NCBI GenBank assembly: GCA_014382365.1
Contig: JACNJW010000027.1
Span: 62,001-126,000, forward strand
DNA: 64,000 bases
DNA from: SAR324 cluster bacterium
GTDB lineage: Bacteria; SAR324; NAC60-12
Reading direction: 5' to 3'
Within the stretch, counting starts at the first letter, position 1. Each line of letters begins with the position of its first letter. Both the position numbers and the translations under genes were made by a program. Below are positions 23,394-37,543 of this stretch, piece after piece. The notes beneath the pieces were generated by a model. It was given only the letters and a program-made list of their open reading frames with translations. It was not told the origin of the DNA and made no database searches.

Positions 23394-24428
23394 ATGCTCG
23401 CATTTTTCGATCCGGAACAATTAAAACACAAACCCAAGTTTTCCCTCTTCAGCGGTGCCCCCAAACCAAATTCTGAAGTTGCAGAAAGAGCGAAAGTTTT
23501 AAGAGCAGCACTTTTGCAGCAGGGTCATGAGCTCAGAATTGCTAAACCTCATGGAATTTCTCCGGTGGCTGCAGTTCATTCACAGGACTATCTCCATTTC
23601 CTCGAAAATATTTATCAACGCTGGCAGGAAATTCCAGGATCTTCAGCAGAAGTAATTCCAAATATTCATCCTAACCGCACTTCCGGAAACGAACCCTGTG
23701 GAATTCCAAAATCTGCTGTTGGACAAGCAGGATGGTACATGGCAGATACCGCTTGTCCGATCAGTAATGATACCTGGAACTCTGCTTTGGCAAGTGCAAA
23801 TAGTGCTGTTGGTGCTGCAAAACATGTAATGGAAGGACATGACTCTGCATATGCACTTTGTCGCCCGCCCGGACATCATGCCTTTGCTGACTTAGCCGGA
23901 GGATTTTGTTTTTTAAACAACTCTGCCATTGCCGCACAACATTTAAGATTGAACTTTCAGAAAGTTGCAATTCTTGATGTTGATGTGCACCACGGCAACG
24001 GAACCCAAAGCATTTTTTATCAGCGTAATGATATCCTGACAGTTTCACTGCACGCAGACACCGCAAATTTCTACCCCTTTTTCTGGGGCTATTCGCACGA
24101 ACTAGGAGATGCTCAAGGCACTGGTTTTAATTATAACTTTCCCCTGGACCATGGAACAAATGATGAAGAGTACCTGCAAACTTTAAAAACGGCGCTTGAG
24201 CGCATAACTGAGTTTTCAGCACAGGCAATGGTCATCGCTTTGGGACTCGATGCTTACAAAGGTGACCCCTACAAGGGACTCGGAGTCAGCACCCAGGGCT
24301 TTGCAAAAATTGCGGCTGAAATTGCTAAATTAAAATTACCCACCGTTTTAATTCAGGAAGGTGGTTATCTTTCTGAGGCACTTGGTGACAACTTGAACAG
24401 TTTTCTGAGTGGTTTCGAAAATGGCTGA
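23394..24428 (+). CDS. Histone-deacetylase-like / acetylpolyamine amidohydrolase-like enzyme
   Basis: 344-residue zinc deacetylase of the class II HDAC and acetylpolyamine amidohydrolase superfamily. Key residues: tandem His in RPPGHHA (His161, His162), zinc ligands Asp197 and His199 in DVDVHHGNGTQ, the third ligand in GLDAYKGDP, and the transition-state Tyr in QEGGYL. The GLDAYKGDP form recalls the acetylpolyamine amidohydrolase branch, which removes acetyl from N-acetylputrescine, cadaverine or spermidine. No signal peptide, so cytoplasmic. It lies directly behind the Liv importer and 9 bases before an SSAT-like acetyltransferase. That pairing supports an acetylated amine as substrate (inference); lysine deacetylation of proteins remains possible. 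Confidence 0.88.
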   Translation: MLAFFDPEQLKHKPKFSLFSGAPKPNSEVAERAKVLRAALLQQGHELRIAKPHGISPVAAVHSQDYLHFLENIYQRWQEIPGSSAEVIPNIHPNRTSGNEPCGIPKSAVGQAGWYMADTACPISNDTWNSALASANSAVGAAKHVMEGHDSAYALCRPPGHHAFADLAGGFCFLNNSAIAAQHLRLNFQKVAILDVDVHHGNGTQSIFYQRNDILTVSLHADTANFYPFFWGYSHELGDAQGTGFNYNFPLDHGTNDEEYLQTLKTALERITEFSAQAMVIALGLDAYKGDPYKGLGVSTQGFAKIAAEIAKLKLPTVLIQEGGYLSEALGDNLNSFLSGFENG

Positions 24429-24437
24429 AATCCCAAA

Positions 24438-24911
24438 ATGATTATCATACGAAAAGCTTTAAAAAAAGATGCTGGAATCGTTTTTCAAATGATCCGTGCA
24501 CTTGCAGAATACCATGGTGAGAGTGCTGATTTCCGTGCAACTCTTGAAGATGTTGAACGAGATGGATTTGGAGAATCTCCGCTTTATGAATCTTGGCTGG
24601 CAGAAATTAACGGAACTCCTTTAGGATTGGCTACATTTTTTCTCTGCTACTCAACCTTCAAAGGCAAACCAAGTCTGCTGCTTGATAATCTTTTTGTTCA
24701 GGAGTCTGCCAGAGGTGCAAAGATTGGTGAAAAATTGGTAAAGCAAGTCAGCAAACGTGCTCTGGAGTTGAACTGCTGCAGAATGGAATTGCTCGTTGAA
24801 AAAAACAATCCTGCACGGGCCTTTTATGAGAAACTTGGATTTTCTGAAACTGCCGACCGCGTTTACAGTATCTACAGCGAAAATTTTAATAATCTTGCTG
24901 CTTTGAATTAG
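24438..24911 (+). CDS. SSAT-like GNAT N-acetyltransferase
   Basis: 157 residues, acetyl-CoA-dependent GNAT fold. It resembles the spermidine/spermine and thialysine N-acetyltransferase group more than ribosomal or general GNATs. It shares IRKALKKDAG, ALAEYH, the DGFGESP turn, YSTFKGKPSLLLDNLFV and a C-terminal FYEKLGF. The acetyl-CoA loop is ARGAKIGEKL, close to the family R/Q-x-x-G-x-G/A pattern. Probably acetylates a polyamine or small amine in the cytoplasm. The gene starts 9 bases after the deacetylase gene, so the two are one transcript with opposing activities. Confidence 0.85.
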   Translation: MIIIRKALKKDAGIVFQMIRALAEYHGESADFRATLEDVERDGFGESPLYESWLAEINGTPLGLATFFLCYSTFKGKPSLLLDNLFVQESARGAKIGEKLVKQVSKRALELNCCRMELLVEKNNPARAFYEKLGFSETADRVYSIYSENFNNLAALN

Positions 24912-25229
24912 TAAAGACTGGTTGTAAGACACAATTAAATTTAAAGATGATTAATATACGTATAATTCGCACAAATAGCGGATTTTTACTCAGAAAATAA
25001 CATGTTTTTAGTAAATAAAGTAAAATAATACTTTACTTTACTGAATTTATAATGTAAGGTTTTCGGAAGATGGAGGAACTACCTCCAAATCTATCCTGTT
25101 TAAGTATTCACTCAGGACAGGTTATAACAGCCATTAGGACTAAGAATCCTAAATCAGAAGTTAAGTAATGCAAAATCCGGGTTCACGTCCTTTTTGGTAA
25201 ACTGCTAACAATCAATTTGGAGTTCAAGT
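24912..25229 (+). promoter_or_regulatory. Structured leader and promoter region of the symporter gene
   Basis: 318 bases without a gene. TATAAT at 25048-25053 follows an inverted repeat, TAAAGTA at 25016-25022 with its complement at 25029-25035, set in a longer imperfect palindrome; that could be an operator. The expected transcript leader (about 25060-25229) can fold into three successive hairpins: 25071-25087 (GGAGG/CCTCC core, 5-base loop), 25095-25121 (CCTGT/ACAGG) and 25134-25152 (TTAGGA/TCCTAA). I cannot match them to a known riboswitch. A ribosome-binding site (TTGGAG) precedes the ATG at 25230. Confidence 0.5.
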
Positions 25230-27167
25230 ATGGATCCTAAAATTGTTTGGCTGTTCGTATTCGTAATCCTTTACTGGGGTTACTGTATTTTCTGGGGGAT
25301 AAAAGGAGCAATTGCTTCTAAGACCGCCAGTGACTACATGGTTGCAGGAAGATCTATCCCACTATGGGTTTTTGTCCTCGCAGCAACAGCAACATCCTTT
25401 TCCGGTTGGACATTCGTCGGCCACCCGGGTTTAATCTTCAGAGACGGTTTCCAATACGCCTACGCCTCCTTTTACACCATTACCATTCCGTTCACTGGTG
25501 TCATGTTCCTCAAACGCCAGTGGATGCTGGGTAAACGCTTTGGTTACGTAACACCCGGCGAGATGCTAGCGGACTATTTTAAAGGGGATGGGGTCCGTGT
25601 ACTGACCGTAGTAGTCGCGCTTTTCTTCTCCATACCTTATCTGGGCGTGCAATTACGAGCCTCCGGCTTTTTGTTTAACGTTCTGACAGACGGAATGCTG
25701 TCAGTAAATGTAGGCATGTGGATGCTCTCCATTGTAGTATTCATTTATGTGGCTTCAGGCGGGTTACGGGCGGTAGCGTATGTAGACACACTACAATGTG
25801 TTTTATTGGCCTTGGGTATAACTGCAATCGGCTTTATCGGTCTGGACGCTGTAGGCGGCTGGACTGTCTTGAAGGCCAATATTATTACTCTGGTCCAAAA
25901 TGATGCCAAATTAACACCGGATGGTTACAGCCATTACATCGCAATTCCGGGTGTCATACAATTTGTTTCATCTGGACCAAGTGCTGCTGGTGGAGCCTGG
26001 ACGGGTATGATGGTCCTGACCTATATGTTTGCACTGATGGGTATCCAGTCCGCACCGGCCTTTTCCATGTGGTCTTTTGGTAACAAGAATCCTGAACCAT
26101 TTGCTCCACAGCAGGTTTGGGCTTCCTCAGCAGGAATCGGTTTCATACTCTTTTTCTTCACAGCTATTCAGTCATTTGCGGCCCATTTCCTTGGTGGTGA
26201 CAAAGTCATGCTGGATGCAGGTGTTGGCAGTAATGCCTTTGGAGTTGAAAGCTGGTCTGAAAAAACTGGACTCTTTGCTCAAGGGAATCTGGTCCCGGAA
26301 ATGATTAACCTTGTTGGCAGCACGACACCCTGGCTGGTTGGTTTACTGGCAGTCTGTGCACTGGCGGCAATGCAGTCAACTGGTGCGGCATACATGTCCA
26401 CTGCCGGTAGTATGCTGACTCGGGATTTGTACAAGCACTTCATCAACAAAGAAGCAGATCACAAAACTCAGATCTTCTTTGGACGTGTAGGTGTCTTGTT
26501 TATCGTCGGTTCTGCTCTAATTGTGGCAACCACTTCCGCAGATGCACTTGTCTTGTTAGGTGGTTTGGCTGTAGCCTACGGTTTTCAAATGTGGCCCGCA
26601 CTGATGTCAGTCTGCTGGTTCCCCTGGTTTACCAGACAGGGAATCACCTGGGGACTGTTCTTCGGAATTATTGCTGTCACGCTGACAGAAACAATTGGAA
26701 AGAACATCTTTGGAGATGCTCTTCCCTGGGGTCGTTGGCCCTGGACCATGCACTCAGCAGCATGGGGGATCTATTTCAACTTGGGTGGAGCAATCATAAT
26801 TTCTGCCTTGACTCAAAATAGTGATGACAGAAGTCACAGACAGACCTATCATGATTTCCTTCATGAACATGCAGGTTTGTCTGATGAAAAACGTGGTTTA
26901 GTCCCCGTTGCCTGGATAATCACACTTGCCTGGTTCTTCTTTGGAATTGGACCCGGTGCCGTAATTGGAAACACTATTTTTGGTGATCCAAATGCACCTG
27001 ACACCTGGGCTTTTGGAATTCCATCCATCTGGACCTGGCAAATCATTTTCTGGGTACTTGGTGTTGGAATGATGTGGTTCCTGGCCTACAAAATGGAAAT
27101 GTCTTTGGTTCCTAAAAAAGAAGTAGAAGCTTTAGTTGAAGATATTGGTGACTCAGTCAAAGCCTGA
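25230..27167 (+). CDS. Sodium:solute symporter (SSS family)
   Basis: 645 residues, about 14 predicted membrane helices, an inner-membrane Na+-coupled importer. Typical SSS features are ASDYMVAGRSIPLWVFVLAATATSFSGWT at the start of helix 2, GGLRAVAYVDTLQ (the family Asp-Thr-Gln motif) and AALAAMQSTGAAYMSTAGSMLTRDLY around helix 8-9, which carries the Na+ site residues. The length is greater than for PutP or PanF (about 500), and the C-terminal part has extra helices, as in the longer SSS branch near ActP-type systems. The usual small partner (DUF4212 or DUF485) is not upstream. A CBS-DUF294 protein and a DnaQ exonuclease protein follow, a neighbourhood seen with SSS transporters elsewhere. Substrate unknown. 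Confidence 0.9.
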   Translation: MDPKIVWLFVFVILYWGYCIFWGIKGAIASKTASDYMVAGRSIPLWVFVLAATATSFSGWTFVGHPGLIFRDGFQYAYASFYTITIPFTGVMFLKRQWMLGKRFGYVTPGEMLADYFKGDGVRVLTVVVALFFSIPYLGVQLRASGFLFNVLTDGMLSVNVGMWMLSIVVFIYVASGGLRAVAYVDTLQCVLLALGITAIGFIGLDAVGGWTVLKANIITLVQNDAKLTPDGYSHYIAIPGVIQFVSSGPSAAGGAWTGMMVLTYMFALMGIQSAPAFSMWSFGNKNPEPFAPQQVWASSAGIGFILFFFTAIQSFAAHFLGGDKVMLDAGVGSNAFGVESWSEKTGLFAQGNLVPEMINLVGSTTPWLVGLLAVCALAAMQSTGAAYMSTAGSMLTRDLYKHFINKEADHKTQIFFGRVGVLFIVGSALIVATTSADALVLLGGLAVAYGFQMWPALMSVCWFPWFTRQGITWGLFFGIIAVTLTETIGKNIFGDALPWGRWPWTMHSAAWGIYFNLGGAIIISALTQNSDDRSHRQTYHDFLHEHAGLSDEKRGLVPVAWIITLAWFFFGIGPGAVIGNTIFGDPNAPDTWAFGIPSIWTWQIIFWVLGVGMMWFLAYKMEMSLVPKKEVEALVEDIGDSVKA

Positions 27168-27181
27168 TTTACTACACTTTT

Positions 27182-27219
27182 CTACCGGAAGAAGCCAAGC
27201 AGTTTCTTCCGGTAGTTTT
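27182..27219 (+). terminator. Rho-independent terminator after the symporter gene
   Basis: Perfect 12-bp stem (CTACCGGAAGAA and its complement, 27182-27193 and 27204-27215) with a 10-base loop, followed by TTTTG. It starts 14 bases after the stop. Confidence 0.8.
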
Positions 27220-27352
27220 GTGATAATTCAAAATCATTGTCGCACCCCGCCAACAAAGTTCGCTTTCCATTTATGTGCTCATTCGTTATCATAAGAGCAC
27301 TTTATATTTAAACATTTCTGGTAGTTTTTAGTCCACATTCAAGAGCAATTGC

Positions 27353-27586
27353 ATGGATGAAACAAGTATACAGCTTTGGTATTGGGGTAGTTCCCTTGTT
27401 TTAGCAGTATTACTGTTTTTCCCAGTAGAAAAAATGCTCTGGGTCAAGCGTGTGCGTAGTACAGAACGCAGGTTAAAACGTGAGACCAGTCTGGAAGAAC
27501 GAGACGAGGAACGCCGCAAAGCCCGCTCGATTGCAGGAATAATTGTGATCAGTTTTTCCTTTTTATTTAATTACACTTTTTTTTAA
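27353..27586 (+). CDS. Small two-helix membrane protein
   Basis: 77 residues. Two hydrophobic helices (about 7-30 and 60-77, the second ending FLFNYTFF) flank a strongly charged Arg/Glu/Lys region (about 32-58, many Arg). I do not recognise a named family. It does not match the DUF4212 or DUF485 partners of SSS transporters. It ends 4 bases before the next gene, so the two are probably translated together. Likely real given the coherent membrane topology and tight spacing. Confidence 0.6.
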   Translation: MDETSIQLWYWGSSLVLAVLLFFPVEKMLWVKRVRSTERRLKRETSLEERDEERRKARSIAGIIVISFSFLFNYTFF

Positions 27587-27590
27587 AAAT

Positions 27591-28205
27591 ATGGCCTCCA
27601 CTCTTGCTGACCCGCAGATACAAAGATTTCTAAAATGGATGGCTATTTTAACTGCGATTCTGGTGGTTGGATACAGTACTTTTCATTACATCTCAGGTGG
27701 TTCAGAAGAAGTAGGAGAACTTCATTACAGAACCGGTAATCTTAGACTGGAAGACAGAGATTATCAGGCTGCACTGACTGAATTCAACCTGTTGCTAAAA
27801 GAAGAGTTTGCTAATCCTGCCGGACTACTGGGAAGAGCTCTAGCCTTAAAAGAATTAGGGCGCCTTAACGAGGCACTTGAAGACATAACTGCAGCTCTGG
27901 AACTAAAACCTGACTTTGCGGCAGCTTTTGCTAACCGCGGAATTATCCTGGATAATTTGGGGCAATATGAAAAAGCTCTCCTGGATTATCGAAAAGCAGT
28001 TCAACTGGATCCGGAAATTGGAGAGGGTCCGGATTGGATTACCCGTTTTCTCCGGAATCAGGCAGAATCACCTTCAACCATTGTGGATCGGGCAAATTAT
28101 TTAGAATTAGAATTAAAAAAACCTGCTGCTGAACAACATCTCAACAACCCTGAAGAAGATGCAAAACAACGTTCTTATAAACTTGAGGGAAGTTTTTCAG
28201 ATTAA
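27591..28205 (+). CDS. Membrane-anchored TPR protein
   Basis: 204 residues: an N-terminal membrane helix at about 14-32 (WMAILTAILVVGYSTFHYI), then three to four TPR units (about 40-145). The units include GLLGRALALKELGRLNEALEDI and FANRGIILDNLGQYEKAL. The C-terminal tail is polar. With no signal cleavage site it is probably anchored with the repeats in the periplasm. It lies between two small membrane proteins in the symporter / DUF294 locus and may be a scaffold. The specific function is unknown. Confidence 0.75.
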   Translation: MASTLADPQIQRFLKWMAILTAILVVGYSTFHYISGGSEEVGELHYRTGNLRLEDRDYQAALTEFNLLLKEEFANPAGLLGRALALKELGRLNEALEDITAALELKPDFAAAFANRGIILDNLGQYEKALLDYRKAVQLDPEIGEGPDWITRFLRNQAESPSTIVDRANYLELELKKPAAEQHLNNPEEDAKQRSYKLEGSFSD

Positions 28206-28232
28206 CAACATTTCAACCTGTCGAGAAAAATA

Positions 28233-28415
28233 GTGCTGGAAAGTACAGAGTGGACTGATTATGCATTTGTACTGATAATCGGATTTATTGCTTACCACGG
28301 CATAAGCTATCGAGACTCTGAAGGTGAACGTGAAATGGTTCATCTGCTTTTTGGCTGTATTGCATTATTTTATGGTATCTGGGTTTTAGGCCGCGACATT
28401 CTCGGTGTGCTTTAG
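28233..28415 (+). CDS. Small membrane protein (60 residues)
   Basis: 60 residues from a GTG start, 27 bases after the TPR gene. Two hydrophobic helices (about 10-24, AFVLIIGFIAYHGI, and 37-58, VHLLFGCIALFYGIWVLGRDI) are joined by a charged RDSEGERE turn. No family recognised. No strong ribosome-binding site is seen, so the exact start and even expression are uncertain. The helical hairpin pattern and lack of overlap favour a real gene. Confidence 0.45.
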   Translation: MLESTEWTDYAFVLIIGFIAYHGISYRDSEGEREMVHLLFGCIALFYGIWVLGRDILGVL

Positions 28416-28455
28416 TCTGAATCCCCATTTCCTTTTCTGATCCCATCATTTACTT

Positions 28456-29916
28456 ATGCAAAAAACCAAACCACATGGGATTTCTCCTTTCAAAAACAAG
28501 ATGGCCGACCTCGTAAGTCGGCAAACAAAGAGCATTCCTCACCATCTTCCAGTAAGTGTGGTTGCCCAGCAAATGGCTGACTCAGGAATCAACTCAATGG
28601 TTGTTGAACAAAACGGAGTGCTGGCCGGAATAGTAACCTCTACAGACTTAGTTCGTCATATACTGGCAAAAAACCTGTCGGGAAGTACACCCATATTTTC
28701 AGTGATGAGTGCACCGCTCATTTCAATTGATCAGGAAAGTCCGATCTTTGACGGATTAATGTTGATGGTGCAAAATAAGATAAAGCACCTTGCAGTAACT
28801 ACAAACGGAAATATTTCCGGAATTGTTTCCGGATGGGATTGGCTGACTTTTCAAGAACGTCATCCTGCAGCATTGTTCAACGAAATTGCTGAAGCACCAA
28901 GTTTCCAGACAGTAGCTCTTTTGAGGACAGAAGCACTTGAGCTGGTGGAACAATTATTTGAGGAAGAGGGTAATGCACGGTCTCTGACACAACTAATTAC
29001 TGAAATAAACGATCGTGTAACTGAAAGAATCATTCAACTCACACTTGAGAAACTGAAAGCGGAAGGAGAAGGCAATCCTCCGGTAAAATATTGCTGGATT
29101 GCAATGGGAAGTGAGGGCAGGAAAGAGCAAACATTAAGTACCGATCAGGATAATGGTCTTGTCTTTGAAAATACTTCGCAAGCAGAATTAGATTCAGTCA
29201 AAAACTGGTTTTTGAAGTTTGCAGTAATTGTAATTGAAGGTCTGGTCCTTTGTGGATTTCCACGCTGCAAGGGAAACATCATGGCCAGTAACCAGGATTT
29301 ATGCCTTTCACAGACAGAGTGGGAACAACTCTTTGTAAAAATATTATCAAACCCTGATCCCTATGCTTTACTAAAAGCTTCGATATATTTTGATTTCCGC
29401 TCAATATACGGCGAATCAAAGCTAGTAAATTCTCTGTGGCAGAATTTGACAGACAAAATACGGCTCAGCCGTGGATTTCTGAGACATCTGGCCCAAAACA
29501 ACATCGAAGCCGGACGCCCTCCTATTTACACATTGGAATGGAAATTCCGCAGTTTTTTTTCACTCTTTCTTCCTCCTGTTGACCTCAAGAGACAAGCGCT
29601 CACACCTTTGGTCATGAGTATCCGTACACTGGCACTGGCTCATGGAATCAAGGAAACTCACACACTTTCACGTATTGAAGAGCTTGTTGCTTGCCAAGCT
29701 CTACCTGCACAATTAGCAGAAGCTGTCTCCAATGCCTATGACTTCATAATGCTATTGAAAATTCGTCAAAACTTTGAGTTTCAGGCAGATTCTTCTGCAG
29801 TTACAAACGAATTACAAACGAAACTGCTTAATCCTCTGCAAAGCAGCTTTTTATATGAAACTTTAAAAACCATTTATGATCTTCAGGACTACGTTAATGA
29901 TATCTTTGGTAATTGA
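28456..29916 (+). CDS. CBS-pair protein with DUF294 nucleotidyltransferase-like domain
   Basis: 486 residues, cytoplasmic. Residues about 15-135 are two CBS motifs (SINSMVVEQNGVLAGIVTSTDLV and KHLAVTTNGNISGIVSGWD types), which usually bind adenine nucleotides. Residues about 145-345 are DUF294, a GlnD-like nucleotidyltransferase fold, with Gly218-Ser219 and Asp230/Asp232 in the TDQDNG motif, so the catalytic acidic pair is retained. The C-terminal helical domain (about 350-486) is the usual DUF294_C. Such proteins often sit beside SSS transporters and DnaQ-like exonucleases in proteobacteria, but what they modify is not established. Here the next genes are a receiver domain and a pseudokinase-exonuclease. 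Confidence 0.88.
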   Translation: MQKTKPHGISPFKNKMADLVSRQTKSIPHHLPVSVVAQQMADSGINSMVVEQNGVLAGIVTSTDLVRHILAKNLSGSTPIFSVMSAPLISIDQESPIFDGLMLMVQNKIKHLAVTTNGNISGIVSGWDWLTFQERHPAALFNEIAEAPSFQTVALLRTEALELVEQLFEEEGNARSLTQLITEINDRVTERIIQLTLEKLKAEGEGNPPVKYCWIAMGSEGRKEQTLSTDQDNGLVFENTSQAELDSVKNWFLKFAVIVIEGLVLCGFPRCKGNIMASNQDLCLSQTEWEQLFVKILSNPDPYALLKASIYFDFRSIYGESKLVNSLWQNLTDKIRLSRGFLRHLAQNNIEAGRPPIYTLEWKFRSFFSLFLPPVDLKRQALTPLVMSIRTLALAHGIKETHTLSRIEELVACQALPAQLAEAVSNAYDFIMLLKIRQNFEFQADSSAVTNELQTKLLNPLQSSFLYETLKTIYDLQDYVNDIFGN

Positions 29917-29980
29917 TCACCTGCAGGGATCAACAATATATGGATTATTTTTCAGCAAGCTCTGAAATAGAGAACAAATC

Positions 29981-30364
29981 ATGCCAAAAAAAATTTTAAT
30001 AATTGAGGATGACCCTGCAATTGTTGTCTCACTGGAATTTTTAATGTTGCAACAGGGCTATGATGTTCAAGTTACTACAAATGCAGAAGAGGGAGAAAAA
30101 ACAATTAGACAGCAAATGCCTGACTTAATTCTGTTGGATATTAACCTGCCTCAACGTTCAGGCTTTGAACTTTGCCGGCAGTTAAGAGCAGACTCAAATT
30201 TTGATCAAACAAGGATAGTGTTGCTGACAGCAAAAGGCCGGGAGGTGGACTATCAAAAAGGAATTGCATTTGGAGCAGATGAATATATTATCAAACCTTT
30301 TTCCACCAGAGATCTAGTACAAACTGTGCATGATCTGCTCTCAACTACAAGAAATTTAATATAA
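29981..30364 (+). CDS. Stand-alone response-regulator receiver domain
   Basis: 127 residues, a receiver domain and nothing else. The acidic pocket is Glu9-Asp10-Asp11, the phosphoacceptor Asp53 (LLDINLP), Thr83 and Lys105 (IIKPF), all intact, so it should be phosphorylatable. No output domain, so it probably acts by binding a partner. Its stop overlaps the next start by one base (TAATG), which pairs it with the membrane pseudokinase-exonuclease. Confidence 0.92.
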   Translation: MPKKILIIEDDPAIVVSLEFLMLQQGYDVQVTTNAEEGEKTIRQQMPDLILLDINLPQRSGFELCRQLRADSNFDQTRIVLLTAKGREVDYQKGIAFGADEYIIKPFSTRDLVQTVHDLLSTTRNLI

Positions 30365-32520
30365 TGAGACCCCGAGAACGACTGACTTTCAGCTGGTTAC
30401 TCCTCAGTTTTGTTTTGCTAACCTCTCTTGCGGGTATTGAATTTTATGTTTTTGTACAGTTGAGTGCTGCACAAAAGGGACAACTTTTAGAATTACTTTT
30501 TCCTTATCGCTACTTCATTCTCGTACCAATACTCATCCTGCTTGGTTTAATAATTTTTGGTGCAAAGTGGGTCCTGGAAAATTTGTGGCTGCCTTTAGCA
30601 CAACTGACTGATGAAGTGGAATTGCTCTTTAGCAGCAGAACAAGCAGTAGCTTGACTTCCAGAGTTCCATTACATTTCCAGCGCATATCGTGTTTACTGA
30701 ATGAGCAGTCAAAACGCATAGAAAAACTGCAAAAAGGGATTGAATCCAAAATTTCACAGGCAAAAAAAGAGTTGGAACAGGAGAAAAATGTTTTTGCGGC
30801 TCTGATAGAAGAGTTAAGTGAAGGGGTAATAGTCTGCAACAGTAGCGCCTATATTCTCCTCTATAATAAGTCTGCACAGGAACTGTTTGTAGATCAAGAG
30901 AATGGAAACACTGCAGAAAATACTAACAAATCACAACTGGGATTAGGACGTTCGTTCAACACAATTTTACCAACACCAAGATTAAAATATACACTTAATG
31001 AACTACAGGAGCGTCACCGACTAGGAAGTTCACACCTGGTTCAGCATTTCAGCACCTGGTTTGGTTCTAAACTGCTACGTGTTCAAACAATTGGGATTCT
31101 AGATCCGGAAAACAAACTTAGCGGTTTTGTTTTTATCTGTGAAGATCTTGCTCCACATTCGAGTGATTATCACCCGCATGAAGTACTTGAGCTACTTCAT
31201 GATGAACAGAGACGTGCCAGTATTGCCAACATCCGCAGTTCAATTGAAACATTGCAGGATTATCCGGAAATGCCGACAGAAAAATATCGGCTGCTGATGA
31301 AAACAATTCAGGAACACTCAGTAAAACTTAGTGAGCAACTTACCCACAACCCAATGCATAATAAAGCTGAACTGCGTGTACTTTGTCCTCTGGAACTTAC
31401 TCCAATTCAGGAATGGTTGCAAAGTTTGAATATTAATCCTGAACGACCGCTAAAATTAACCTGTATCATGGCTGACTCAAGTCAAACTTGGTATGTCCAA
31501 CTGAACCGCTATTTTTTCAGTCAAGTCCTTGAATTCCTTTTTCAGCAGCTGCATCAGCTTCTGCACTTGACTCAACTTGAAATAAGACTGGACCGCAAGG
31601 ATCAATTTATCATGTTGGATATTTGCTGGCAGGGAAAAGAATTAGCTCCTGTGGAATTGCGAAATTGGCTTAACCATCCTTTGAGATCTATTTCAGAAGA
31701 TCAGACTGTTAACATTTCAGAAATTTTACGACAACATGATGCCGAAATTTGGTTTGAAGGTCTGCCGGACAGCCTTGAACACGGACTGAGGTTATTTGTT
31801 CCTTGCCTTGATGAAATGGATCCAAAATTTGAGTTGAAGAGCCATATTAATTTAGGTAGCCGGCCCGTTTTTTATGATTTTGACCTTTTCCACAAAACAT
31901 CTTTGTCAAAAAAATGGAATGAAGTACTACTGACTGAAGCAACTTATACAGTTTTTGATACAGAGACTACCGGACTCAATCCTGCAGGAGGTGATGAAAT
32001 CATTTCAATTGGAGCTATCCGCATTGTTAATGGTCAAATATTAAGGAATGAAACATTTTCTCAACTGGTCAATCCGCAGCGTGAAATTTCTCCACAGTCG
32101 TTTCAGATACATGGTATCTCCGTTGAAGAACTGCAAGATAAGCCACTGATATCTCAGGTGCTGCCTCTGTTTCACAGCTTTGTGCAGGATTCAATTTTGG
32201 TGGCACATAATGCAGCCTTCGATCTGAGGTTTCTGCAAATGAAAGAAGATTCGAGTGGATTAATCTTTGATAATCCTGTGCTCGATACTCTCTTACTTTC
32301 TGCGGTCATACATCCCAATTTAGACAAACATGATTTAGACACGCTTGCTCAACGTTTTGGTTTAGATTTCAAGCAGCGACATTCAGCCATGGGTGATGCT
32401 GAAGTTACTGCTCAAATCCTGCTTGAGCTTTTTCCAATGTTAAATTCTAAGAGAATCAATACAATACAGGATGCCCAAAGTGCAGCAAAGAAAAGCTACT
32501 ATGCCCGCCTCAAATATTAA
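30364..32520 (+). CDS. Membrane PAS/degenerate histidine-kinase protein fused to DnaQ-like exonuclease
   Basis: 718 residues. Two membrane helices (about 9-33 and 46-68) are followed by a HAMP-like coiled region. A PAS-like domain covers about 145-270. A DHp-like helical pair (about 275-325, RRASIANIRSSIETL) comes next, where the position of the phospho-accepting His appears to be Asp or Gln. A weakly conserved ATPase-like region (about 340-480) precedes the exonuclease. The C-terminal 190 residues are a complete DEDDh 3'-5' exonuclease with Asp532, Glu534 (FDTETTG), Asp620 (HNAAFD), His673 and Asp678. The nuclease therefore looks active while the kinase looks inactive. It is the last gene of the symporter/DUF294/receiver locus. 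Exonuclease part certain; kinase-like part moderate; target (DNA, RNA or small oligonucleotide) unknown. Confidence 0.85.
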   Translation: MRPRERLTFSWLLLSFVLLTSLAGIEFYVFVQLSAAQKGQLLELLFPYRYFILVPILILLGLIIFGAKWVLENLWLPLAQLTDEVELLFSSRTSSSLTSRVPLHFQRISCLLNEQSKRIEKLQKGIESKISQAKKELEQEKNVFAALIEELSEGVIVCNSSAYILLYNKSAQELFVDQENGNTAENTNKSQLGLGRSFNTILPTPRLKYTLNELQERHRLGSSHLVQHFSTWFGSKLLRVQTIGILDPENKLSGFVFICEDLAPHSSDYHPHEVLELLHDEQRRASIANIRSSIETLQDYPEMPTEKYRLLMKTIQEHSVKLSEQLTHNPMHNKAELRVLCPLELTPIQEWLQSLNINPERPLKLTCIMADSSQTWYVQLNRYFFSQVLEFLFQQLHQLLHLTQLEIRLDRKDQFIMLDICWQGKELAPVELRNWLNHPLRSISEDQTVNISEILRQHDAEIWFEGLPDSLEHGLRLFVPCLDEMDPKFELKSHINLGSRPVFYDFDLFHKTSLSKKWNEVLLTEATYTVFDTETTGLNPAGGDEIISIGAIRIVNGQILRNETFSQLVNPQREISPQSFQIHGISVEELQDKPLISQVLPLFHSFVQDSILVAHNAAFDLRFLQMKEDSSGLIFDNPVLDTLLLSAVIHPNLDKHDLDTLAQRFGLDFKQRHSAMGDAEVTAQILLELFPMLNSKRINTIQDAQSAAKKSYYARLKY

Positions 32521-32755
32521 CTCCAAAAACTATTTGTTCAACTGCATTCTCTTGCTCTTTTGTGTTCATTCAATTTATTCTAAAAACACAAACATGACAG
32601 CATGACATAAAAATTGCGGATTATTGAAAATAATGAAAAACTTGAATTATATATATTTCTGGTAATCATACAATACTGTTAATCAAAGTCTATTGCCGGT
32701 ATAAAGTGCTTAGTTTAGCGGATTATAAAACCAAACTTTTTTGATCAAGGAATTG

Positions 32756-33982
32756 ATGATTCTAAAAACAAATGGAGAGCGACTGTGGAACTCACTGATG
32801 GAAATGGCAAAAATAGGTCCAGGTGAACTTGGCGGTAACCGCAGGCTTGCATTGACAGATGCAGATATTGAAGGGCGTGAGCTCTTCCGTAAATGGGCTG
32901 CTGACGCAGGCTGTACTTTTCGACTGGATACAATGGGAAATCTATTTGCCTGCAGATCTGGTAAAAGTCCTGACGCTGCACCTGTAATTGCCGGAAGTCA
33001 TTTAGATACGCAGCCTTCCGGCGGTAGATTTGATGGAATCCTGGGTGTTCTTGCTGCACTTGAAGTTGTCCGTTCACTTAACGATCACAATGTTATCACT
33101 GAATCTCCAATTGAAATTGTAGTCTGGATGAATGAAGAAGGTGCACGTTTCCCCCCGGCAATGATGGGTTCAGGGGTTTTTGCTGGTATTTTTGAACAGT
33201 CAGAAATCTACACGCATCAGGATCCTGACGGAACCACAGTAGAAAGCGAATTAAGGCGAACTAAACAGTTGGGAGAAACTTTTTGCGAAGCCTTCCCGAT
33301 CAAGGCCTATTACGAACTGCACATAGAGCAGGGGCCAATCCTTGAGGCAGAAGGCCTCAGAATCGGAGTGGTCACTGGCGGTCAGGGTGCATACTGGACA
33401 CACATAACCCTACATGGACAAGGTTCACATGCCGGCACCACACCAATGAACTACCGCAGAGACCCCATCATGGGTGCAGCCAGAATTATCACGGAACTGC
33501 GGAAAATAATACGGAAGCATCCTGCTGCTGTTGGTACAGTCGGCCGACTGGAAACTCACCCTTCTTCTATCAACACAATACCGGGTAGAGTTTTTTTCAC
33601 AGTTGATACCAGACATCCGGATGAAGAAATTCTGGCACAAATCAACCAGGACCTGGAAATCCTGGTCCAAAAAATTTGTACCGAAGAGCAACTTGAAAGT
33701 GAGTTGACTAATATCTGGAAAGCTCCAACTATCAACTTTAATCAGGATTGTGTCTCCAAGGTCAGGAGTGCTGCTGAATCTTTAGGCTACAGTCATCAGG
33801 ATATTGTTTCAGGGGCAGGTCATGATGCATGTCAGCTCAGCCACATTGCCCCGACTGGCATGATCTTTATTCCCTGTGAAAACGGATTGAGCCATGATGA
33901 AGCTGAAAACGCTTTACCGGAAGATGTAACTGCAGGAGCAGATGTCCTGCTCAACGCTATTTTGGCAAGCGCAGCTAACTAA
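32756..33982 (+). CDS. M20-family amidase/carbamoylase (N-carbamoyl-amino-acid hydrolase type)
   Basis: 408 residues, cytoplasmic dinuclear-zinc hydrolase of the HyuC/AmaB/allantoate amidohydrolase group. Motifs: GSHLDTQPSGGRFDGILG (zinc His and Asp), NEEGARFPP, HIEQGPILE (zinc His) and GAGHDACQL near the C-terminus. The SHLDTQPSGG form is typical of N-carbamoyl-L-amino-acid hydrolases and beta-ureidopropionases. ATG 32756 is preferred because AAGGA lies 4 bases upstream and family members start near NGERLW; TTG 32741 is an alternative. The gap before it (32521-32755) shows only AT-rich sequence. Followed 66 bases later by a C45 acyltransferase. Confidence 0.88.
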   Translation: MILKTNGERLWNSLMEMAKIGPGELGGNRRLALTDADIEGRELFRKWAADAGCTFRLDTMGNLFACRSGKSPDAAPVIAGSHLDTQPSGGRFDGILGVLAALEVVRSLNDHNVITESPIEIVVWMNEEGARFPPAMMGSGVFAGIFEQSEIYTHQDPDGTTVESELRRTKQLGETFCEAFPIKAYYELHIEQGPILEAEGLRIGVVTGGQGAYWTHITLHGQGSHAGTTPMNYRRDPIMGAARIITELRKIIRKHPAAVGTVGRLETHPSSINTIPGRVFFTVDTRHPDEEILAQINQDLEILVQKICTEEQLESELTNIWKAPTINFNQDCVSKVRSAAESLGYSHQDIVSGAGHDACQLSHIAPTGMIFIPCENGLSHDEAENALPEDVTAGADVLLNAILASAAN

Positions 33983-34048
33983 CAGCTAAGAGAACTCGCT
34001 GATTTTTTTTAAAATTCAAAAGTCAGTACCAAGTATTTAAGAAAAATT

Positions 34049-35104
34049 ATGTCAGTTGAACAACTCAAAACAATTGAAGTCGCCGGAACTCCAAAAGAAA
34101 TTGGTTTTGCAATTGGAAAAGCTGATGCTGATTCAATCCGGCAACAGTTACTTACGCTTACTGAATTTAGTGCTTTGGAGCAGTACTGGCAGGGCAGCAG
34201 TTATCTTTGGCGACTTGATGCTGCAGCTCGCAGCGTTTTTCCGGAATATGTTTTAGAGCTTGAAGGAATGGCTCTGGGAGCACAAGTCGCATATGAGTCT
34301 CTTTTTCTTTGGAACTGCAGAGGTGATTTGCCGCTAAACGAGGGGGAAAATCCCGAATCGGTGGAACATGCACCCGAGGGCTGTACAACTCTTCTTTTAC
34401 CGGCAGTCGACGGTCGCAGTGCGGTAATTGCACACAATGAAGACGGTCCGCCTGAACTGAATGGACACTGTTACTGGCTCACTGTCAGACAGGACAATGG
34501 TACAAATTATTCTACTTTCCATTATCCCGGAATGCTGCCGGGGCATACCTTTTCTGTAAATAGCCGAGGTCTGGTGCAGACTATCAACAATATCCGAGTT
34601 AGTGATCTGAAAACCGGAATTCCACGGCATTTCATTTGTCGGGCAATTTTGGATAGCAAAACTTTGGACGAGGCTCTTGAGTTTCTTCAACGTCAGGACC
34701 GTGCCAGTGGATTTCATCACTCACTCGGACATAGTTCAGGAAACGAACTGCTTTCGGTAGAAGCTCCTGCCAGCGGTTGTGCAGTCAAAAAAATAAAATC
34801 AGCCGCCACACATGCCAACCATTTACTGAATGAAGTGTTTTGCGGGCTCTCACAAACTGTAACGGAATCTTCCGCCTTTCGTCAAAACATGTCTGAAAAA
34901 CTGATTTCAGAATCTGTTTCCACAGATCCAAAGTCCATCCTTTTTCATCAGCCCTCTCAGGGACTTTCCATTTTTCGCAGGCCAAACGACGGAGGTGATG
35001 ATTATGCTTTCACTCTGGCAACAGGAACTTTCTGCATCTCCGCGAGCGGAGTCAAGTGGCAGATTCATCTCGATAAAAATGAAATTCCTGCTCTTTCAAA
35101 TTAA
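34049..35104 (+). CDS. C45-family acyltransferase/amidase (isopenicillin N acyltransferase-like)
   Basis: 351 residues, an Ntn-hydrolase of the peptidase C45 family, which hydrolyses or transfers acyl groups at amide bonds and matures by self-cleavage before an internal Cys. The nucleophile is Cys112 in EGCTTLLLP, followed by the family pattern IAHNEDGPP and the FHYPGMLPGHTFSVN region. No signal peptide. It sits between a carbamoylase and kbl-tdh, so a role in freeing amino acids or amines from acylated forms is plausible (inference). A link to beta-lactams is not implied. Confidence 0.85.
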   Translation: MSVEQLKTIEVAGTPKEIGFAIGKADADSIRQQLLTLTEFSALEQYWQGSSYLWRLDAAARSVFPEYVLELEGMALGAQVAYESLFLWNCRGDLPLNEGENPESVEHAPEGCTTLLLPAVDGRSAVIAHNEDGPPELNGHCYWLTVRQDNGTNYSTFHYPGMLPGHTFSVNSRGLVQTINNIRVSDLKTGIPRHFICRAILDSKTLDEALEFLQRQDRASGFHHSLGHSSGNELLSVEAPASGCAVKKIKSAATHANHLLNEVFCGLSQTVTESSAFRQNMSEKLISESVSTDPKSILFHQPSQGLSIFRRPNDGGDDYAFTLATGTFCISASGVKWQIHLDKNEIPALSN

Positions 35105-35118
35105 GCTTGATTCATTCC

Positions 35119-35150
35119 GCAATTATAGTGTAGTTATACACTGGAATTGC
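35119..35150 (+). terminator. Hairpin after the C45 gene
   Basis: Outer arms GCAATT/AATTGC and inner arms AGTGTA/TACACT form one interrupted stem 15 bases after the stop. There is no clear T-run, so it may be an mRNA end stabiliser rather than a true terminator. Confidence 0.5.
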
Positions 35151-35306
35151 AGAGAAATAAATTTCTTTTATCATTTCTAGTGAAGCCAATAATCTTAATG
35201 ATATTAGTGTGGTTTTCTACTAATAATTTCTTGCTCCGCTGGAAACGACGCGAATTAAAGACTTTTTGAGAAGCCATCAAAGATAATTTTCCAAAACAAA
35301 AAATTC

Positions 35307-36497
35307 ATGAGCAAAAACTTCTTCAACAATCTAAATGAGAAACTGGAAGAATTAACAAGCGCAGGATTATATAAATCAGAACGGATTATAACTTCCCGGC
35401 AATCCGGAAACATTTCCGTTTTGCCCGGCAACAACGTGCTAAATTTCTGTGCCAATAATTATCTGGGGCTGGCAGATAATCCGGAGTTGATTAAGGCCGG
35501 AAAAACGGCACTTGATGAAAAAGGTTATGGAATGGCGTCTGTCCGTTTCATCTGTGGAACACAGGATGTGCATAAAGAACTGGAAATGAAAATTTCTGAA
35601 TTTTTGGGAATGGAAGACACAATTCTCTATTCCTCGTGTTTTGATGCCAATACCGGTTTATTTGAAACACTATTGGGAGCAGAAGACGCAATCATATCCG
35701 ATGCTATGAATCACGCATCCATCATCGACGGTGTACGCCTGTGCAAAGCACGTCGTTTCCGTTATCTCAATAACGACATGTCGGATTTGGAAAAGCGTTT
35801 GCAGGAAGCCGCAGATGCGCGTTTTCGTTTGATTGCTACTGATGGAGTGTTCTCCATGGACGGCATCATCGCAAACCTGAATGGCATTTGCGAACTTGCG
35901 GAAAAGTACGATGCGCTGGTGATGGTTGATGATAGTCACGCGGTCGGCTTCATGGGTAAAAACGGGCGTGGAACTCCGGAACATTGTGGTGTTGCAGACA
36001 AAATTGACATCTTAACCGGAACACTTGGAAAGGCACTTGGCGGAGCTTCCGGAGGCTACACCAGTGCGAAAAAAGAAATCATAGAATGGCTGCGTCAACG
36101 ATCCCGTCCTTATCTGTTTTCGAACACTTTGGCGCCTGTTATCGCCGCAACAACTATCAAAGTGCTGGAATTGATTGACATCCGTCCGGAACTCCGTAAA
36201 AAGCTTTTTGAGAATGCGGATTTTTTCAGAAAGGAAATGACGACACTTGGTTTTACACTCGCGGGTGCTGGACATCCGATAATTCCGGTTATGCTTGGAG
36301 ACGCAGAACTGGCCCAAAATTTTGCTACAAACATGCTAAAACAAGGCATCTATGTGATCGGATTTTCTTTTCCAGTTGTTCCTGAAGGTCAGGCCCGGAT
36401 ACGGTCACAAATGTCTGCCTCACACAGTCGAAATGATGTTGAATCCGCGATTCAGGCGTTTAAACAAGTTGGACAGCAGCTGGGAATAATCAAATGA
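35307..36497 (+). CDS. kbl: 2-amino-3-ketobutyrate CoA ligase (glycine C-acetyltransferase)
   Basis: 396-residue PLP enzyme that splits 2-amino-3-oxobutyrate with CoA into glycine and acetyl-CoA, the second step of threonine breakdown. Alpha-oxoamine synthase motifs: [34 protein letters not shown], and the PLP Lys242 in [13 protein letters not shown]. Usual length (about 398). Its stop overlaps the start of tdh by 4 bases, giving the classic kbl-tdh operon. Confidence 0.96.
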
Positions 36498-37543
36498 AAA
36501 ATGCGAGCAGAAAAATTATGAAAGCACTGGTCAAAGCAAAACCGGAAATTGGACTGTGGATGGAGCAGGTTCCAATACCGGAATATGGTCCAAACGATGT
36601 TTTGGTTAAAATCAGGAAAACGGCAATCTGCGGCACCGATGTTCATATCTGGAAGTGGGACGAATTCATTTCAAAACTTGTTCCTGTACCAATGGTCGTC
36701 GGCCACGAGTTCTGCGGAGAAATAATTGAAGTTGGAGCCTCAGTCACAAAATATAATGTGGGGCAGCGTGTCTCCGGAGAAGGTCACGTCATATGCGGAA
36801 GTTGCAGAAACTGCAGGGCGGGGCGAGGACACTTATGCCGAAATACACTTGGAATCGGCGTACAGTTGCCAGGAGCTTTTGCTGAATTCCTACGTCTGCC
36901 AGAAGACAATGTTGTGCCTATTCCAGCAGATATTCCGGATGAAATCGCCTCAATTTTTGATCCATTCGGAAATGCGGTTCATACTGCTCTGACTTTTGAT
37001 TGCGTTGGAGAAGATGTGCTGGTAACAGGTGCAGGACCAATCGGCATCATGGGTGCTTTGGTTGCCCAAAAAGCAGGAGCACGTAAAGTTGTTATCACTG
37101 ACATCAATCCACAGCGCATTCAGCTTGCCGAAAAAATGGGAGTTAATTATGTGGTCAATACCGAAAATGAAGATTTGCAGGAAGTCATGCAGAAAATCGG
37201 CATGCAGGAAGGTTTTGACATTGGACTGGAAATGTCAGGTGCAGCTCCTGCCTTTCGTGATATGATTGATAAAATGAACAATGGAGGAAAGATTGCAATT
37301 CTTGGCATCTCCTCAACCGGATTTGACATTGATTGGAATAAAGTCATATTCAAGATGTTGAAAATACACGGAATATACGGCAGGGAGATGTTTGAGACCT
37401 GGTACAAAATGATTGCCTTTGTGCAGTCCGGTTTAGACCTTTCTCCCCTCATCACCCACCGTTTTCCAATTGATGATTTCCAAAAAGGATTTGCTGAAAT
37501 GCTGTCCGGAAATTCCGGCAAAGTAATTCTCGACTGGGAATAA
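36494..37543 (+). CDS. tdh: L-threonine 3-dehydrogenase
   Basis: 349 residues; oxidises threonine to 2-amino-3-oxobutyrate with NAD+. Zinc medium-chain dehydrogenase: catalytic Cys in [12 protein letters not shown] and His-Glu in GHEFCGE, structural zinc Cys cluster [15 protein letters not shown], and Rossmann motif GAGPIGIMG. The ATG at 36494 couples translation to kbl. An internal ATG at 36518 begins [10 protein letters not shown], exactly where E. coli Tdh starts, and is an equally good start. Confidence 0.95.

Follow-up and report, generated by a model that had tools for sequence, protein, structure and literature searches.

Do the seven co-directional genes at positions 25230–32520 of a 64,000-nucleotide stretch of DNA from a SAR324 cluster bacterium (GenBank assembly GCA_014382365.1, contig JACNJW010000027.1, positions 62,001–126,000; hereafter, the window) form one complete chain of sensing and signaling? 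Such a chain, running from adenine-nucleotide sensing by CBS through nucleotidyl transfer and receiver phosphorylation to a nuclease output, had been proposed from the sequence alone (hereafter, the original prediction). The seven genes were found as described: all are intact open reading frames (ORFs) on the + strand, with the expected Pfam domains. However, the block is a composite of Module A (25230–28415), taken here as the symporter with three putative accessory membrane proteins, and Module B (28456–32520), which encodes a CBS-DUF294 protein, a lone receiver and a membrane pseudo-histidine kinase fused to a DEDDh exonuclease. We propose, with a probability of about 0.5, that Module B belongs to a circuit for carboxylate use in which an SLC5-type sensor kinase signals through the receiver and the dead kinase to the exonuclease, the latter being paired with the DUF294 protein.

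The receiver and the pseudokinase–exonuclease fusion

The last gene of Module B (30364–32520, + strand) encodes a protein of 718 aa with an RNase_T match, in which residues ≈ 523–718 form the exonuclease. Its AlphaFold model (pLDDT 75) consists of two transmembrane (TM) helices, a HAMP/coil segment, a PAS domain (154–261), a two-helix DHp domain (271–327), a CA-like domain (335–482) and the exonuclease (528–717), and Foldseek matched these parts to the WalK, VicK-like and ThkA kinases and to DnaQ/Pol III epsilon, as well as to RNase T. The aligned fusions all lack a histidine at the H-box column, as they do the N, G1 and G2 motifs, while D532, E534, D620, H673 and D678 of the exonuclease are invariant across 39 fusions. 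The loss of the kinase motifs together with the invariance of the catalytic exonuclease residues points to a conserved dead kinase carrying a live nuclease, and the label of a pseudokinase fused to a DnaQ exonuclease therefore holds for the whole family.

The preceding gene (29981–30364, + strand), which overlaps the fusion gene by 1 bp, encodes the receiver (127 aa; PF00072, Response_reg). It is a single-domain protein with intact Asp53, as had been predicted, and neither D53 nor K105 varies among 21 homologues; it has no output domain and so differs from the DNA-binding regulators of SLC5/STAC systems. A lone receiver adjoins 25 of the 30 fusions that contain a pseudokinase segment (at least 200 aa, assigned by segment length and hidden Markov model score) versus none of the six that lack it (Fisher p = 2e-4, a value that ignores shared ancestry). 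This pattern of adjacency fits a receiver that docks on the dead kinase, and the docking of DivK~P on DivL is an earlier case of a receiver being read by a pseudokinase (PMC4211667). An earlier count of 23/24 versus 0/10, obtained with a phmmer match as the criterion, was too favorable because it missed the Paracoccus segment, and it has been superseded by the count given here.

The sensor kinase and its carboxylate neighbors

The lone receiver lies next to the fusion in 25 loci with usable context, the window included, and in all of the other 24 a CbrA/CrbS-like SLC5 sensor kinase is encoded within 0.6 kb (at one of them, L115, the receiver is located inside an over-long ORF). These 24 loci, from Alpha- and Betaproteobacteria, Desulfobacterota/delta metagenome-assembled genomes (MAGs) and SAR324, often also carry an AcsA-type acetate-CoA ligase, a VC_2705 symporter with DUF4212, and DUF294. 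The receiver, the pseudokinase–exonuclease and DUF294 thus recur together across phyla, and the lack of conserved co-occurrence that the original prediction had named as its own refutation was not encountered.

The SLC5 kinase is absent from the window block, which is consequently not the complete chain that had been claimed; the only full-length SLC5 kinase of this genome is encoded on another contig, C69, where a small peptide precedes it. Over its transporter part, this kinase aligns with the solved chain 10ed, the SLC5 part of a histidine kinase (E 3e-63), and it has HisKA/HATPase domains that keep the HELRTPL, N, G1 and G2 motifs. It is this protein, and not any product of the window, that combines an SLC5 domain with a competent histidine kinase, and it would act on the window receiver in trans. 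The alignment with 10ed ends at residue 591, and no Pfam match was reported in the region between the SLC5 and kinase domains, where a STAC domain would lie. An AcsA-type acetate-CoA ligase homologue (79%) is located in the window genome on a contig other than the window's own.

DUF294 and its exonuclease partner

Module B begins with the CBS-DUF294 gene (28456–29916, + strand; 486 aa), which encodes two CBS domains followed by DUF294 and DUF294_C, and for which the best named match was a protein of a SAR324 MAG (48%). The Asp230/Asp232 pair noted earlier is present and, with a third aspartate, D313, does not vary across 29 aligned DUF294 sequences. With the predicted structure (pLDDT 88), Foldseek retrieved CBS proteins as well as whole-chain matches to GlnE (1v4a), together with the GlnE C-terminal domain (3k7d) and DrrA (6yx5), the whole-chain TM-scores with the GlnE/DrrA adenylyltransferases being moderate (0.45–0.52); a viral fold search yielded nothing beyond CBS noise. 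As judged from the model, the protein is GlnE/DrrA-like, having a nucleotidyltransferase (NTase) fold, the GS...DxD motif with a third Asp, and a GlnE-like C-terminal helical domain. The earlier description of a nucleotidyltransferase-like protein therefore stands, in the form of a DUF294 protein with a predicted protein adenylyltransferase fold, but its placement ahead of receiver phosphorylation does not, because receivers obtain their phosphate from kinases. The order of nucleotidyl transfer, receiver phosphorylation and nuclease output is accordingly unsupported, whereas a link from receiver to nuclease is the most plausible reading.

The 80 named DUF294 loci surveyed were drawn from the closest relatives and not at random. 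In 55 of them, an exonuclease lies within 500 bp of DUF294, and 56 of the 61 exonuclease matches in 1.36 Mb lie no more than 500 bp from DUF294. The window has the same pair, with an intact NTase motif, a CBS pair and an intact DEDDh set, the receiver gene being placed between the two partners. Nine loci (L073, L082 (11404–12072), L083, L095, L112, L116, L123, L126 and L127) contain both a fusion and a stand-alone exonuclease; in each of them the stand-alone enzyme has lost four of its five catalytic residues, the five positions reading D-V-V-R-N (D-A-V-R-N in two of the nine), while the fusion is intact. The stand-alone exonuclease is intact in 25 of the 33 fusion-free loci. Its decay beside an intact fusion suggests that the fusion has assumed the exonuclease role.

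Two variations on DUF294 gene content were also observed. At L105 (Desulfobacter latus), four DUF294 copies occur in 20 kb, beside an exonuclease fusion without an adjacent receiver; and proteins of ≈ 1230 aa containing DUF294 are encoded directly downstream of symporter-like genes at L074, L081, L086 and L119 (Anaerolineae/Chloroflexi MAGs).

The separable symporter module

Module A starts with the SSS/SLC5 Na+/solute symporter gene (25230–27167, + strand; 645 aa; PF00474, E 7e-32). A terminator-like hairpin with a 14-pair stem and a T tail lies directly 3′ of it (27182–27215, + strand), followed by sm1 (27353–27586, + strand; 77 aa, two TM helices predicted from hydropathy), which adjoins the symporter in SAR324 genomes. 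The module continues with a conserved membrane-anchored TPR protein (27591–28205, + strand; 204 aa, TPR Pfam matches, one TM helix) and the conserved small membrane protein sm2 (28233–28415, + strand; 60 aa, GTG start). The intergenic gaps, in order, are 185 bp between the symporter and sm1, then 4, 27, 40, 64 and −1 bp, with 220 bp to the next gene; the hairpin together with the 185-bp gap makes a single transcript for all seven genes unlikely. Hairpins with T-runs were found at the same site in G001, G020 and G026 despite different sequences, those of G020 and G026 resembling, when folded, ordinary terminators.

Comparison within the SAR324 class (52 genomes) separated the two modules further. 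The symporter-sm1-TPR order is kept in G001 (95%), in G020 and G026 (79%) and in G032 and G040 (74%), and sm2 is present in these relatives wherever the contig extends to it. In G001, which belongs to the same genus, the M20 peptidase gene (starting at 32741 in the window) directly follows sm2 and the Module B genes are absent. A blastn alignment of the window with this locus (L166) covered only 24984–28418 and 32756–34623, so that the indel (28419–32755, + strand) corresponds to exactly the three Module B genes, and DUF294, the receiver and the fusion are present or absent as one unit. A single seven-gene operon was consequently rejected, in view of Module A standing alone in G001 and of the terminator-like hairpin; the symporter probably forms a transcription unit by itself and is part of a separable module, rather than a member of one block with the signaling genes. 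IS3-like transposase fragments, recognized by eye, lie directly upstream of the symporter in G001 (L166:2195–2759). The idea that Module B had recently been acquired from a lineage other than SAR324 was rejected: the receiver tree places the receiver among SAR324 receivers, and the GC contents (37–41% in the three Module B genes, 41–47% in the peptidase and Module A genes) are not decisive.

At the same time, what comes after Module A in G020 is a gene for a small peptide, then one for an SLC5 kinase and one for a lone receiver, and in the Desulfobacterales locus L076 a symporter and TPR gene precede an ACS-family acyl-CoA ligase, the receiver and the fusion. Although the block in the window is composite, the repeated position of the symporter module beside parts of one signaling system speaks for a functional connection.

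The symporter scored 81.9 bits with TIGR03648, below the family cut-off of 320.75, and was therefore rejected as an acetate symporter of the VC_2705/DUF4212 type; by sequence, it belongs to a subfamily distinct from VC_2705/ActP, with orthologues of 74–95% identity in SAR324 genomes. When the window genome was searched with an acetate-type symporter query, only this symporter was matched and no second one.

Flanking genes

Upstream, at 23394–24911, the window carries a histone-deacetylase-family amidohydrolase gene and a GNAT gene. Downstream, at 32741–37543, lie the M20 peptidase gene, an AAT-family acyltransferase gene, an aminotransferase-family gene and an alcohol-dehydrogenase-like gene, perhaps for threonine catabolism.

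Discussion

In the wiring proposed here, both modules would serve the uptake and use of a small carboxylate of the acetate, pyruvate or propionate type, and Module B would provide the output side of a system run by an SLC5 sensor kinase. The kinase encoded elsewhere in the genome would sense the substrate and phosphorylate the lone receiver, which would then switch the membrane exonuclease by docking on its dead DHp/CA region, control presumably running from receiver to nuclease. The DUF294 protein would be a CBS-controlled, GlnE-like nucleotidyltransferase and the conserved partner of the exonuclease, and within this scheme the two would most likely add and take off a nucleotidyl mark restricting the use of carboxylates.

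Several known systems resemble parts of this arrangement. The SLC5/STAC system CrbS/R targets the DUF294 gene in Pseudomonas (PMC5715377; PMC8402216), and in P. putida DUF294 and the exonuclease form one operon that is the target of an SLC5 kinase system (PMC9927547). CrbS/CrbR (MxtR/ErdR), which governs acetate and pyruvate use, likewise unites an SLC5 kinase, a small-acid transporter, an acetate-CoA ligase and DUF294-exonuclease in one circuit (PMC5715377, PMC9927547); its DNA-binding regulator, however, acts on transcription of the DUF294-exonuclease operon, whereas here the receiver is bare and the kinase would work in trans. A bare receiver combined with an exonuclease fused to a dead kinase suggests post-translational control. 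The P. putida pair PP_0354/PP_0353 also places CBS-DUF294 beside a DEDDh exonuclease, but PP_0353 is soluble and stand-alone, with neither receiver nor pseudokinase. The CbrX-CbrA transceptor shares the SLC5-sensor kinase preceded by a two-helix membrane peptide of ≈ 60–80 aa, although CbrA signals to the sigma-54 activator CbrB and no exonuclease is involved. DivL-DivK of Caulobacter pairs a PAS-bearing pseudo-histidine kinase with a lone receiver (PMC4211667), but DivL retains N, G1 and G2 and signals to CckA, while the SAR324 fusion has lost these boxes and ends in a nuclease. The literature searched yielded no description of the receiver/dead-kinase/exonuclease cassette; it is a genuine, conserved version of the carboxylate circuit built on SLC5 kinases, and its exonuclease appears to be controlled post-translationally.

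What the exonuclease acts on is a separate matter. That the receiver-switched enzyme erases nucleotidyl marks from a carboxylate transporter or ligase, a CBS-sensing DUF294 adenylyltransferase having set them there, is, in this specific form, rather improbable. During growth of P. putida on pyruvate, exonuclease and actP-I mutants were poor and the DUF294 mutant was unimpaired (PMC9927547); silent loss of a writer and harmful loss of an eraser would also be expected of a writer/eraser pair, so these phenotypes fit it without proving it. A rival to the wiring proposed here, less probable than it, is control at the RNA level, with the exonuclease trimming RNAs of carboxylate uptake or metabolism, DUF294 adding nucleotides to RNA, and the receiver gating decay at the membrane. 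The usual substrates of DEDDh exonucleases are DNA or RNA, the window enzyme is matched to RNase T as well, and the P. putida authors proposed mRNA decay (PMC9927547). Nevertheless, the closest full-chain solved relatives of DUF294 are the protein adenylyltransferases GlnE and DrrA and not RNA tailing enzymes, and DUF294_C has been placed in the GlnD/GlnE-type C-terminal group (PMC3710099).

Less probable again is a constitutively active fusion, in which the pseudokinase only anchors or dimerizes the exonuclease and the receiver serves another partner: membrane PAS-exonuclease forms devoid of the pseudokinase segment do exist (L137, L138 and L047), but the receiver adjoins only forms that retain it (25/30 versus 0/6). 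Least credible is a self-contained chain in which the symporter supplies the input and DUF294 modifies the symporter or the receiver. Co-direction of the genes and the occurrence of symporters near DUF294 in 39 of the 80 loci speak for it; against it stand the absence of a kinase from the block when elsewhere an SLC5 kinase adjoins the receiver, the existence of Module A without Module B in G001, and the hairpin behind the symporter.

The kinase–receiver–exonuclease wiring that we prefer must itself be set against several observations that weigh on the other side. Another lone receiver belonging to the same family (L149:2081–2470, on C69) lies ≈ 7 kb from the SLC5 kinase, which makes cross-talk possible, and the tree does not resolve the placement of this kinase as a strict orthologue of the exonuclease-linked kinases. 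The receiver–segment counts ignore shared ancestry, with p = 0.17 within SAR324 alone, and five fusions with a pseudokinase segment have no adjacent receiver. Moreover, the ATP-binding boxes are lost too, unlike in DivL, all nine decayed exonucleases are of Rhodocyclales type, and the proposed substrate derives from neighboring genes only. Two further genes, a kinase-like one and another receiver gene, come after the receiver gene at L149:2081–2470.

DUF294-CBS proteins and their DEDDh exonuclease partners are common in bacteria and are regulated by acetate/pyruvate sensor systems. The cassette points to the exonuclease as the output under control, with the SLC5 kinase, the receiver and the dead kinase as its likely input. 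A five-gene operon in the cultivable Paracoccus denitrificans PD1222 (PDEN_RS25395–25415), in which RS25405, RS25410 and RS25415 encode the SLC5 kinase, the receiver and the pseudokinase–exonuclease, offers a tractable counterpart, and the writer/eraser model is open to genetic test in P. putida. If it is true, a nuclease-type eraser as the output of a two-component system would constitute a reversible modification circuit of a previously undescribed kind.

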